NCBI RefSeq assembly: GCF_030413175.1
Contig: NZ_CP129212.1
Location: forward strand, 6,052,450-6,116,449
DNA: 64,000 bases
Direction: 5' to 3'
Origin: Bradyrhizobium roseum
GTDB lineage: Bacteria; Pseudomonadota; Alphaproteobacteria; Rhizobiales; Xanthobacteraceae
Shown: positions 7,640-11,247 of the stretch, one piece after another
How the letters are laid out: every line of letters begins with the position of its first letter
Position numbering within the stretch: the first letter of the stretch is position 1
Program-made: the position numbers and the translations under genes
The notes under the pieces: model-generated
What the model was told of the DNA's origin: nothing
Database searches by the model: none
Seen by the model: only the letters and a program-made list of their open reading frames with translations

Positions 7640-9538
7640 ATGAACATCCGCTCCAATCCCGACACCACCCTGCCCGCCGTTACCACCGGCCCGCTGCCCT
7701 CGTCGCGAAAAATCTTCGCGACCCCTGACGCCGCGCCCGACCTGCGCGTGCCGCTCCGCGAAATCATTCTCTCGGAAGGCGCCGGCGAGCCGAACCTGCC
7801 GGTCTACGACACCTCCGGCCCCTACACCGATCCCTCCGTCGTGATCGACGTCAACGCCGGTCTCTCCCGCAACCGTCTCGCCTGGGTCAAGGAGCGCGGC
7901 GGCGTCGAGGAATATCAGGGCCGCGAGATCAAGCCGGAGGACAACGGCAATGTCGGCGCCTCGCACGCCGCAAAGGCGTTCACCGCGCACCACAAGCCGC
8001 TGCGCGGCCTCGACGGCCACAAGATCACGCAACTCGAGTTTGCCCGCGCCGGCATCATCACCAAGGAGATGATCTACGTCGCCGAGCGCGAAAACCTCGG
8101 CCGCAAGAAGCAACTCGAACGCGCGGAAGCCGCCCTCGCCGACGGCGAAAGCTTTGGCGCCGAAGTGCCCGCCTTCATCACCCCGGAGTTCGTCCGCTCT
8201 GAGATCGCGCGCGGTCGCGCCATCATTCCCTGCAACATCAACCACGCCGAACTCGAGCCGATGATCATCGGCCGAAACTTCCTCACCAAGATCAACGCCA
8301 ATATCGGCAACTCCGCCGTGACGTCGTCGGTCGAGGAGGAAGTCGACAAGATGGTTTGGGCGATCCGCTGGGGCGCCGACACTGTGATGGACCTCTCCAC
8401 CGGCCGCAACATCCACACGACGCGCGAATGGATCCTGCGCAACGCGCCGATCCCGATCGGCACCGTGCCGATCTACCAGGCGCTGGAGAAGTGCGAAGGC
8501 GATCCCGTCAAGCTGACCTGGGAGCTCTACAAGGACACGCTGATCGAGCAGTGCGAACAGGGCGTCGACTATTTCACCATCCACGCCGGCGTGCGCCTGC
8601 CCTACATCCACCTCACCGCCAACCGCGTCACCGGCATCGTGTCGCGCGGCGGCTCGATCATGGCGAAGTGGTGCCTGGCGCATCACAAGGAAAGCTTCCT
8701 CTATACGCATTTCGACGAGATCTGCGACCTCATGCGCAAGTATGACGTCTCGTTCTCGCTCGGCGACGGCCTGCGGCCCGGCTCGATCGCGGATGCCAAC
8801 GACCGCGCGCAGTTTGCCGAACTGGAGACGCTCGGCGAACTCACGAAGATCGCCTGGGAAAAAGGCTGCCAGGTGATGATCGAAGGCCCCGGCCACGTGC
8901 CGATGCACAAGATCAAGATCAACATGGACAAGCAGCTCAAGGAATGCGGCGAAGCCCCGTTCTACACCTTGGGCCCGCTGACGACGGACATCGCGCCGGG
9001 CTACGACCACATCACCTCGGGCATCGGTGCCGCCATGATCGGCTGGTTCGGCTGCGCCATGCTCTGCTACGTCACGCCGAAGGAGCATCTCGGCCTGCCC
9101 GACCGCAACGACGTCAAGGTCGGCGTGATCACCTACAAGATCGCCGCCCACGCCAGCGACCTCGCCAAGGGCCACCCCGCCGCGCAACTGCGCGACGACG
9201 CGCTCTCCCGCGCGCGGTTCGACTTCCGCTGGACCGACCAGTTCAACCTCGGCCTCGATCCGGAGACCGCGAAGAACTTCCACGACGAGACGCTGCCGAA
9301 GGAAGCCCACAAGGTCGCGCATTTCTGCTCGATGTGCGGGCCGAAATTCTGCTCGATGAAGATCACGCAGGACGTGCGGGATTACGCGGCGACGCTGAAC
9401 GATCCGGCGGGTGTGGGGATGTCGGTGAGCGGGACCATTGAGGACGGGATGGCGTCGATGAGCGCCAAGTTCAAGGAGATGGGCAGCAGCGTGTATCTGG
9501 ATGCAGAGAAGGTGAAGGAGAGTAATCGGGTGTTGTGA
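7640..9538 (+). CDS. thiC: Phosphomethylpyrimidine synthase ThiC
   Basis: A 632-residue radical SAM enzyme converting AIR to HMP phosphate. The C-terminal cluster motif [11 protein letters not shown] is present near residue 565-575, with [28 protein letters not shown] and [21 protein letters not shown] in the barrel. A GGAGG site lies 7 bases before the ATG at 7640. It is the last gene of the operon behind the TPP riboswitch. Codon use changes near the 3' end: up to about 9330 Gly and Ile codons are nearly all GGC/ATC, after that GGG, GGT and ATT become frequent. A decayed copy of its tail is found at 11103-11247. Confidence 0.97.
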
Positions 9539-9557
9539 AGGTCCCCTCTTTGAAGAG

Positions 9558-9576
9558 GCCCGGGTACGACCTGGGC
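9558..9576 (+). terminator. Hairpin after thiC
   Basis: GCCCGGGT, ACG loop, ACCTGGGC: an 8-pair stem with one G-U pair, 20 bases after the thiC stop, with a smaller CCTCT/AGAGG hairpin just before it. There is no clear U-tract, so it may be a Rho-dependent or weak terminator. Confidence 0.45.
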
Positions 9577-9698
9577 CTCCCGTCACGAGCTAAGACCTAT
9601 CCGTGATTTTGCGGCGCACTAGAAGTAAACAAAACACACTCCCCGACTTCATGCCCTTATGCTAGTCTTAGGTTGTATTGACGCGCAGGAGGAGATCT

Positions 9699-10427
9699 AT
9701 GCCAAGATTCCAAGCGCCGAAACCACCACGGCACAATGAGGCCGAGAGCGCAAAGGCAAGTTTAGAAAAATCGAATAGCGATCCTGACGTCCTAGCCTCA
9801 GCTATTAGAGGGGACGTCTCAAGCCTAGTAAGTCAGTCCAGCTTTCCTAATCAATTGACCGTGGATTCCGCTCAAATCGGTACCGCCGATATTGCTAAAG
9901 ACGTTGAAGAGTACCGTACGCAGATGGAGGAACTCTCACTTAGCGGCAATCCCGCCCACGCTGTGGATCTAGAATACCGTTCACATTCTATGGCCACTGG
10001 ACGTGGCCGTATAATCACCGTTCTACTCAGGTTTTTACCTATTACCGAACCGATATCCAAGTACGAAGGCTTTTTGACATCGCTCAATCAGTCCGGGATC
10101 CGTCCATATCCCATAAGTCAGAATGACGCTCACGAAATCTTCGTTGATCGACTGTCTGAATTCATCGCTACACGAGTCGACTCAGGTGTTGGAAGTTCGC
10201 CCCCTTCAACGTTCGTGGAAACAAATCGCATCGGCGAGACGGTCCTCTACGCAAAGGGCTATTTCTTGAGCACGGGAACCGTCTTCGGCACATCCACACC
10301 TGCTATCGCTTCTATCCCGAGTGGGCGGTATTCATTTGGGATATTGAATTCGAAGGGGCAGCAGCAATTCGAGAATGCGGTCTGGTCGATACCAACTCAG
10401 AGCGCTATTCGGCTGAACCTTTCGTGA
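9699..10427 (+). CDS. Unknown protein, first gene of accessory two-gene cassette
   Basis: A 242-residue protein with no family I recognise. The N-terminal 50 residues are polar and rich in Pro, Ser and Asn. The middle has DIAKDVEEYRTQMEELSLSG and a stretch with hydrophobic strands (GRGRIITVLLRFLPI), and the rest is Ser/Thr/Gly-rich with likely beta strands (FLSTGTVFGTSTP, GRYSFGILNSKGQQQFEN). No signal peptide or membrane helix. The ATG at 9699 has an AGGAGGAG site at 9687-9694. Codons are clearly more A/T-ending than in the thi genes, a sign of transfer. Its stop overlaps the GTG start of the next gene, so the two products are probably made together. Confidence 0.75.
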   Translation: MPRFQAPKPPRHNEAESAKASLEKSNSDPDVLASAIRGDVSSLVSQSSFPNQLTVDSAQIGTADIAKDVEEYRTQMEELSLSGNPAHAVDLEYRSHSMATGRGRIITVLLRFLPITEPISKYEGFLTSLNQSGIRPYPISQNDAHEIFVDRLSEFIATRVDSGVGSSPPSTFVETNRIGETVLYAKGYFLSTGTVFGTSTPAIASIPSGRYSFGILNSKGQQQFENAVWSIPTQSAIRLNLS

Positions 10428-10987
10428 GCAAATTCGGCGTTTTTGCGAACCTAGTTGCAATTGCTGGGTCTCTTGCGGCTGCGGCAGCCGCAATATCTTT
10501 GGCCTTTCTCAAGCAGGCCAATTGGCGTCCGCCGGAAGAGGCGATCCCCGCAGCCGTTCCAAGGATGTCAGCACTAATATCGATGATCTTCATCGCTATG
10601 ATATATGTCTTTGGAGTTGACCTCGGAAGGATCGGCCTGGGGATCCTCGCTGGAGGCCTTCTATTCTTGGCTCTCTTTTTCCTTGCGATCGCCATCCATA
10701 TCAATACTGCGTTCTCCTTCTACTATCCGAACCGCAAAAAAGAGAACCGGAAGTTGGGCGGCGACACTTTGACCGACGAAGCCCAAGAGATAAAACGCGA
10801 GAAAAGAATTCCAGAGCAGCAACTATTTGAAGATGCGCAAGGATCGAAGGATTTGGTTTGGACTCGAGCATCCCAGTCAAGGGTGCAGATCAAAGCTGTG
10901 TTGTCATTTATAGGATTAATTGCCTTTGGCACTTGTGCACTAGCCGCGGCCTCAATGCTCGTCGCCCTCTTTGTACCTACCAGCTAG
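10424..10987 (+). CDS. Four-helix membrane protein, second gene of accessory cassette
   Basis: A 187-residue inner-membrane protein of unknown function. Predicted helices: residues about 6-28, 46-66, 70-93 and 157-182. A charged cytoplasmic loop of about 60 residues (YYPNRKKENRK to ASQSRVQIK) separates helices 3 and 4. The start is GTG at 10424, overlapping the previous stop in a GTGA arrangement. Low-GC codon use matches the neighbour. Small membrane proteins coupled to a soluble partner occur as effectors in defence and toxin systems, but nothing in the sequence proves such a role here. Confidence 0.75.
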   Translation: MSKFGVFANLVAIAGSLAAAAAAISLAFLKQANWRPPEEAIPAAVPRMSALISMIFIAMIYVFGVDLGRIGLGILAGGLLFLALFFLAIAIHINTAFSFYYPNRKKENRKLGGDTLTDEAQEIKREKRIPEQQLFEDAQGSKDLVWTRASQSRVQIKAVLSFIGLIAFGTCALAAASMLVALFVPTS

Positions 10988-11102
10988 GATTTAGGAAGCG
11001 TGGCCGACGGCGGCGAGCTTGTTTACGGCAGGTCGCCGAGCACGATTGCGCTGCGGCTGCAGCAAGACCACCCCTTATAAGCGCATCGACATCCAGGGCA
11101 CG

Positions 11103-11247
11103 CACTAAATGATCCGGCAGCGCGGGGATGAGAACGCGGTTAGGCTCCATCGCTGGTGGTATGGCGCAATGGACCAGAAATTCAGCGAGTGGGGAGCGCG
11201 GGAATCTAGACGCGGAGAAGGTGAAGGAGAGCAATAGGGTATTGTGA
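11103..11247 (+). pseudogene. Decayed duplicate of the thiC 3' end
   Basis: The last 42 bases (11206-11247) encode [13 protein letters not shown] and a stop, exactly as the thiC end at 9497-9538. They are 36/42 identical, and all six changes are synonymous. Upstream, similarity continues with indels: GATCCGGC and GGGGATG near 11110-11130, CCATCG and ATGGCG near 11148-11166, and, in another frame, MDQKFSEWG against MSAKFKEMG in ThiC. Frameshifts and the lack of a start make it non-functional. It marks the right border of the segment that carries the two-gene cassette. Confidence 0.8.

Follow-up and report, generated by a model that had tools for sequence, protein, structure and literature searches.

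Several bacterial systems are known in which new gene ends or gene cargo are imported beside a conserved sequence and older ends are pushed aside. The C-terminal tips of Rhs proteins are displaced in series from a conserved anchor, for which circular intermediates have been proposed (Jackson et al. 2009, PMC2935791), and the effector modules of the Vibrio cholerae type VI secretion system (T6SS) undergo sequential displacement, perhaps by homology-facilitated illegitimate recombination (PMC5361080). Homology-assisted illegitimate recombination has also been put forward for the origin of dimorphic variable segments (PMC2884548). In the core defence hotspots (cDHS) of Pseudomonas aeruginosa, 29% of the cDHS1 and 47% of the cDHS2 sites have no detectable mobile gene, and the authors suggest transfer by flank-mediated homologous recombination, from which they expect no mobile-element scars (PMC10250203). 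Here we describe a 64,000-nucleotide (nt) stretch of Bradyrhizobium roseum (NZ_CP129212.1; genome of 7.32 Mb in one contig), hereafter the window, in which a displaced and decayed copy of the 3' end of the thiamine gene thiC lies downstream of the live gene, behind two cargo genes, A and B (Table 1). Many of its relatives carry, behind thiC, a uracil-DNA-glycosylase-family gene that we presume to be mug. We consider it likely that this locus is a recombination hotspot shaped by the serial import of thiC-anchored segments, one end of which is homologous while the other is joined irregularly or closed into a circle.

Set beside the cited portions of these accounts, the thiC locus shares with the Rhs tips a conserved gene part that acts as homology anchor, with the old ends lying downstream; unlike in Rhs, the product of the anchoring gene, a housekeeping gene, is unchanged, and the cargo consists of separate genes, many of them defence-like. 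With the T6SS arrays it shares one-sided homology, an irregular far end and ordered older remnants that include a displaced gene 3' end, but those arrays retain immunity genes, whereas the thiC locus retains the end of a metabolic gene as a scar only. As in the P. aeruginosa hotspots, variable defence cargo lies between core genes; the interval is much shorter, with a thiC-mug median of 1489 nt against 26 kb for cDHS1, and scars of the flanking genes remain, whereas the route suggested there is expected to leave no mobile-element scars (PMC10250203). The joining mechanism that we propose is the same as for the dimorphic segments, whose account, in the portions cited, describes neither the serial layers nor the displaced gene ends found at thiC (PMC2884548). 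What is new relative to these displacement systems is the housekeeping-gene anchor with independent cargo, and no report of a thiC hotspot was among the top-listed literature results.

The last 42 bases of live thiC (9497-9538) recur at 11206-11247 with 36 of 42 matches, while the runner-up 42-mer in the window, on either strand, reaches 24. The homologous stretch extends further upstream with indels, and the alignment upstream of 11206 attains a local score of 29.0, a value that none of 300 mononucleotide shuffles reached (mean 14.5, maximum 24.0). A profile of 121 thiC tails (one genome being represented twice) matches 11103-11247 with an E value of 4.9e-15, and a longer profile, built on the final 880 nt of thiC, matches the displaced tail over 145 nt with an E value of 1e-13. 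The last 14 thiC codons are highly conserved in the genus and could make the 42-mer alone misleading, which counts in favour of chance similarity or of a composition bias shared by gene ends; given the profile E value over 145 nt, the shuffles and the exclusive occurrence of such matches on the thiC strand (15/15, see below), we rejected this explanation, whose probability we regard as negligible. The initial annotation had reported the recurrence with its 36 matches, had traced the similarity with indels to about 11103 and had placed two low-GC genes between the tails. These observations hold, with a GC fraction of 0.49-0.52 over genes A and B versus 0.61-0.66 in thiC (500-nt windows), and the alignment upstream of 11206, on which its idea of an insertion depended, is better than chance.

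All six differences within the 42-base repeat are synonymous, as had also been noted and taken to mean that the second copy was under protein-level selection until recently. However, five of the six bases are found in the live thiC of at least one other locus and one is private to the displaced copy, so the six differences say little about recent selection on it, which weakens this part of the claim. Relative to the best live tail, mismatches amount to 3/42 in the last 42 bases versus 19/99 in the part upstream, so the end is not significantly better preserved (Fisher p 0.08). We rejected the possibility that the last 42 bases were kept as an attachment site, given this level of heterogeneity and the agreement of the other displaced tails with their respective live tails at 35 to 41 of the 42 positions.

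The comparison used the DNA behind thiC from 148 further genomes, which together with the window make 149 of 265 genus genomes. Most had been selected for a similar ThiC, nine for their right flank and one, G032, for its second tail (L and G numbers are our handles for loci and genomes). Some downstream stretches are cut by contig ends, and L067 (a second entry for the L112 genome) and L215 (which lacks thiC) were excluded before the count. When both strands of 1.9 Mb of downstream DNA were searched with the 880-nt profile (E ≤ 1e-3), 12 displaced thiC fragments were found in 11 of the 149 genomes, all of them on the thiC strand and at most 4.1 kb from thiC, an orientation like that of displaced Rhs ends. 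Nine of the 12 reach the stop codon or end at most 2 nt short of it. At a looser threshold (E ≤ 0.1), all 15 matches lie on the thiC strand; those weaker than 1e-3 (L074, L183 and L157) were dropped.

Differing DNA between two thiC ends, which the initial annotation had suggested looking for, occurs in G193, G077, G049, G166, G023 and G032, and the cargo ahead of the tail includes a LysR-type gene before the first tail of G193 and a subtilase gene in G032. G193 is the sole genome with two displaced tails in series, of which the outer is 88.8% and the inner 96.1% like the live tail (n = 1). A second tail in a genome free of the cassette had been named as evidence against an insertion, and G023 does carry one, at +446 to +600, which in part tells against that idea; it is flanked by different DNA on both sides, however, and therefore probably stems from an event separate from that of the window.

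The explanation first proposed was an element that inserts at the thiC 3' end and brings its own replacement tail; in a site-specific form of this idea, a mobile element would recognise that end, restore the gene with its own tail and leave the old tail at the far end as a direct repeat. A direct repeat of a gene 3' end does flank the cargo, as in islands in tRNA and protein genes, and an IS110-type transposase domain is present in at least one of 106 cargo representatives (among the best 25 of 69 families). In contrast to the fixed crossover edge of an integrase-type island, the left edges of the fragments vary and extend up to 325 nt into thiC: for fragments at or near the stop codon they lie, in coordinates of the 880-nt profile, at 556-559, 625, 652, 728, 735, 770 and 828, and in two short pieces at 683 and 691. 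Four loci with common flanking DNA share the edge at 556-559, one of them being cut short at 615, and look like one event, independence having been judged by eye. Moreover, 138 of the 149 loci have no second tail at E ≤ 1e-3, no recombinase domain was detected with Pfam and PADLOC in the window cassette, to which this test was confined, and the extra mug pieces at the opposite flank, described below, would not be expected. On the strength of the varying edges and of the cassette without a detected recombinase, a site-specific element was rejected, and we regard it as very unlikely. Recurrent insertion behind thiC is supported, but an element that brings its own tail is not. A better fit is the alternative named by the initial annotation, in which a donor segment with a thiC end was captured through homology.

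As a separate observation on the fragment edges, a REP-like motif (GGTGGGTTA/TAACCCACC) lies at most 60 nt before the left edge in five of the 12 displaced ends (L110, L111, L112, L075 and L076), three of which represent one event; the motif occurs in 135 of 8940 random windows (1.5%). The displaced end of the window has no REP-like motif within 60 nt before its left edge.

The interval behind thiC varies strongly across the genus. A mug gene follows thiC in 104 of the 149 loci at a distance of 3 to 11,094 nt, with the median given above, and an SPFH gene in 28 loci at 1270-7485 nt; neither was found in 17. Mechanical calling of open reading frames (ORFs) of at least 60 amino acids (aa) gave 356 cargo ORFs in 105 of 121 loci, the other 16 having no right flank in reach, and these fall into 216 clusters with 165 singletons, a greedy calling that includes some spurious ORFs. 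Constant flanking genes enclose differing gene content, as in an integration hotspot flanked by core genes, and the neighbouring gaps are not equally variable: the distance from the SPFH gene to the OYE-type gene is constant (221-357 nt in 19/19 loci, compared with the 1270-7485 nt between thiC and SPFH), and that from the OYE-type to the SBP-type gene is 92-305 nt in 16 of 19 loci and 3.4-3.6 kb in three. When 106 cargo representatives of 150 aa or more were scanned and the best 25 families per library listed, the list included GmrSD, TIR, NACHT, FRG and an AbiEii-like AAA; matches to 157 PADLOC families were obtained (the best 25 listed), which is a raw count. Two side observations concern the same region. 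In L046, L057 and L058, a further insertion, some 3.4-3.6 kb long, separates the OYE-type from the SBP-type gene, and L151 carries two opposite-orientation copies of one ORF beyond mug, at +1231 to +2547 and from +3934 behind thiC, which we take to be transposase-like.

Scars are also present at the other flank of the interval. The mug family belongs to the uracil-DNA-glycosylase (UDG) superfamily (PF03167, E 5.7e-17 in L181), and a mug relic sits in the window directly behind the cassette and ahead of the displaced thiC end, with blastn matches in 69 loci at 76-85% identity and an nhmmer E value of 4e-7; no intact mug was found in the 20 kb scanned behind the thiC of the window. In 12 of the 104 mug loci, an extra partial mug precedes the intact gene (a piece in L047, at a contig end, was dropped). 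In ten of these (L144, L150, L156, L157, L176, L177, L184, L221, L224 and L235), the partial copy ends at nt 241-243 and is followed by a conserved stretch, shortened in L224, and then by the intact mug; in L150, the stretch encodes a ParE toxin (E 3e-14) behind a small gene. The ten shared edges are probably a single event, inherited or spread, whereas the partial copies in L138 and L185 represent other events. Such scars, which mirror those at thiC, are what one-sided import with its anchor in mug would produce.

As a plausible mechanism for the serial import that we favour, a donor segment in which cargo follows a thiC 3' end would pair with the resident thiC as homology anchor, and its far end, having no matching partner, would be joined irregularly; alternatively, the segment would close into a circle and integrate by one crossover. 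By both routes, the resident thiC would stay complete, the new cargo would lie beside it, and the older thiC end would be pushed downstream and decay. In the window, the newest layer would comprise genes A and B and the mug relic, acquired from a relative with the thiC-mug order, and the older layer would comprise the displaced thiC end and the SIR2-nSTAND gene beyond it. The homology, its recurrence, the orientation, the differing cargo, the foreign alleles in displaced tails and the mirror scars at mug are observed, whereas we infer the crossover within thiC, the irregular or circular joining and this order of the layers. Integration of free circles of thiC tail and cargo by a single homologous crossover would give an identical product and would explain the retention of tails with their own thiC-side spacer; no circle was observed, and the mug-thiC junction of the window fits either route. 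Within the favoured explanation, we regard the circle as possible but as the less likely version.

The displaced tails bear alleles of other species. Seven of the 12 tails entered an allele test, the window by its last 42 bases only, in which a base was counted as common if 8 or more of 119 other live tails have it. In 7/7, the sites at which a displaced tail departs from its own live tail carry such common bases more often than expected (p ≤ 0.0125 under two mutation nulls), for instance at 14 of 23 differences in G077, where 2.9 and 3.3 are expected, and at 4 of 6 in the window, where 0.5 and 0.9 are expected. This pattern fits alleles that evolved in different lineages. Five of the seven tails (G077, G049, outer G193, G023 and the window) are 0.6 to 4.2 points closer to some other species than to the live tail of the same genome, although being nearest to one of 119 others is easily reached by chance. 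From about 515 to 73 nt ahead of the stop codon, the live thiC of the window matches the mug clade as well as its own clade or slightly better (by 0 to 2 points, in five of five sliding windows), which gives a weak hint of a mosaic structure.

These results bear on a rival view, in which each genome duplicated its thiC end locally in tandem and gained the cargo between the two copies afterwards by other means. Such a duplication would account for the tails of G166 and the inner tail of G193, which are closest to their own live tail. It is at odds with the alleles and the similarities just described, and in eight comparisons across seven genomes the sequence separating the tails does not repeat what lies behind the second tail, apart from matches confined to the first 98 nt next to thiC in L109, L110 and L111, which are one event; beyond these 98 nt, the two are unrelated in the genomes tested. 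We therefore hold a tandem duplication to be unlikely.

Several points weigh against serial import. The sample is biased by the choice of genomes for ThiC similarity and by the addition of G032 for its known second tail; independent events are fewer than fragments, with L109-L112 being one event, and the tails of the window and G023 may not be independent of each other. The allele enrichment could also come from live thiC changing after a local duplication, and the two tails nearest their own live tail (2/7) point the same way. In the window, the displaced tail has decayed so far, to about 70% identity with many genomes, that it cannot be placed. The live thiC of the window is closest over the last 145 nt to its own clade (93.2%, L040 and L041; the best of the mug clade reaches 90.4%), so that its extreme end shows no mug-clade donor tail, which tells against a simple exchange of the tail for one from a mug-clade donor. 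Finally, the mug relic is an internal piece of the gene instead of the expected 5' end, which the simple model does not predict.

The cassette genes A and B gave no Pfam or PADLOC match at E ≤ 1. In a set of 5.8 billion proteins, gene A has a family of 22 proteins and gene B one of 64, each including itself. The two look like a conserved pair, because eight contig sizes (1518, 1713, 2530, 2287, 6433, 10616, 7674 and 1318) recur among relatives of both. Within the genus, gene B occurs in 2 of 265 genomes at E ≤ 1e-10, that of the window and G039 (36% identity), where it sits on a different contig from thiC. An AlphaFold model of gene A of fair confidence (mean pLDDT 83.6) predicts an alpha/beta N-terminal part and a beta-rich C-terminal part, and its comparison with the PDB gave weak matches only, with no clear solved-structure match. 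As an observation in its own right, positions 9699-10987 define a conserved two-gene family, mostly metagenomic, that Pfam does not match; one protein has an invariant C-terminal domain and the other is its hydrophobic partner.

Beyond the displaced tail, the protein that would represent the older cargo combines a SIR2 domain with a STAND NTPase (Pfam), and PADLOC gives weak matches to ThsA and Avs5; it is a probable anti-phage defence gene. It was found in 2 of the 265 genomes (E ≤ 1e-100), in both behind thiC and in the same orientation, at 69% DNA identity. In the second carrier, G084, the gene lies between thiC and mug and is split across two reading frames. Relatives elsewhere include one at 95% on a metagenome contig of 2,960 nt and one at 56% in unclassified Bradyrhizobium. 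The occurrence at the same site in two genomes with different right flanks suggests that the gene was transferred anchored on thiC; old common inheritance would be the alternative explanation for the shared site.

ThiC, the product of the left anchor, was found in 190 of 195 genus genomes searched. In the window, thiC ends a run of thiamine genes that includes the ThiG and thiamine monophosphate synthase families and an FAD oxidoreductase, and a thiamine pyrophosphate (TPP) riboswitch lies upstream of them at 4596-4738.

Table 1. Features of the thiC locus in the window (positions within the 64,000 nt).
Feature	Position	Strand	Basis or remark
Live thiC, left anchor of the hotspot	7640..9538	+	Pfam ThiC_Rad_SAM, E 5.2e-184, and ThiC-associated
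Part of live thiC matched by the displaced copy	9394..9538	+	alignment
Cargo gene A, 242 aa	9699..10427	+	
Cargo gene B, 187 aa, hydrophobic, conserved beside gene A	10424..10987	+	
mug relic (uracil-DNA-glycosylase-family gene)	11006..11066	+	profile nt 342-403 of 510
Displaced, decayed thiC 3' end	11103..11247	+	alignment and profile matches
SIR2_2 and nSTAND NTPase5 protein, 820 aa	11323..13785	-	PF25199, E 1.2e-17; PF13289, E 1.7e-11
SPFH/Band 7 gene, right flank common to close kin	14823..15467	+	PF01145, E 4.1e-12
NADH:flavin oxidoreductase (OYE-type) gene, right flank	15541..16833	+	PF00724, E 9.2e-84

A broader reading, which we consider rather unlikely, is that thiC ends and mug starts serve as common sticky ends for a genus-wide exchange of small recombinase-free defence cassettes, with units of tail and cargo passing between species. 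If true, such an exchange would leave a dated stack of thiC ends, and irregular joins would possibly be favoured at REP-like palindromes. Defence genes often lie between core genes with no visible mobile element. With the scars of thiC and mug, the number, order and age of imports become partly readable and a recombinase-free route becomes testable, and the thiC-mug interval is a place to seek new defence genes in Bradyrhizobium.

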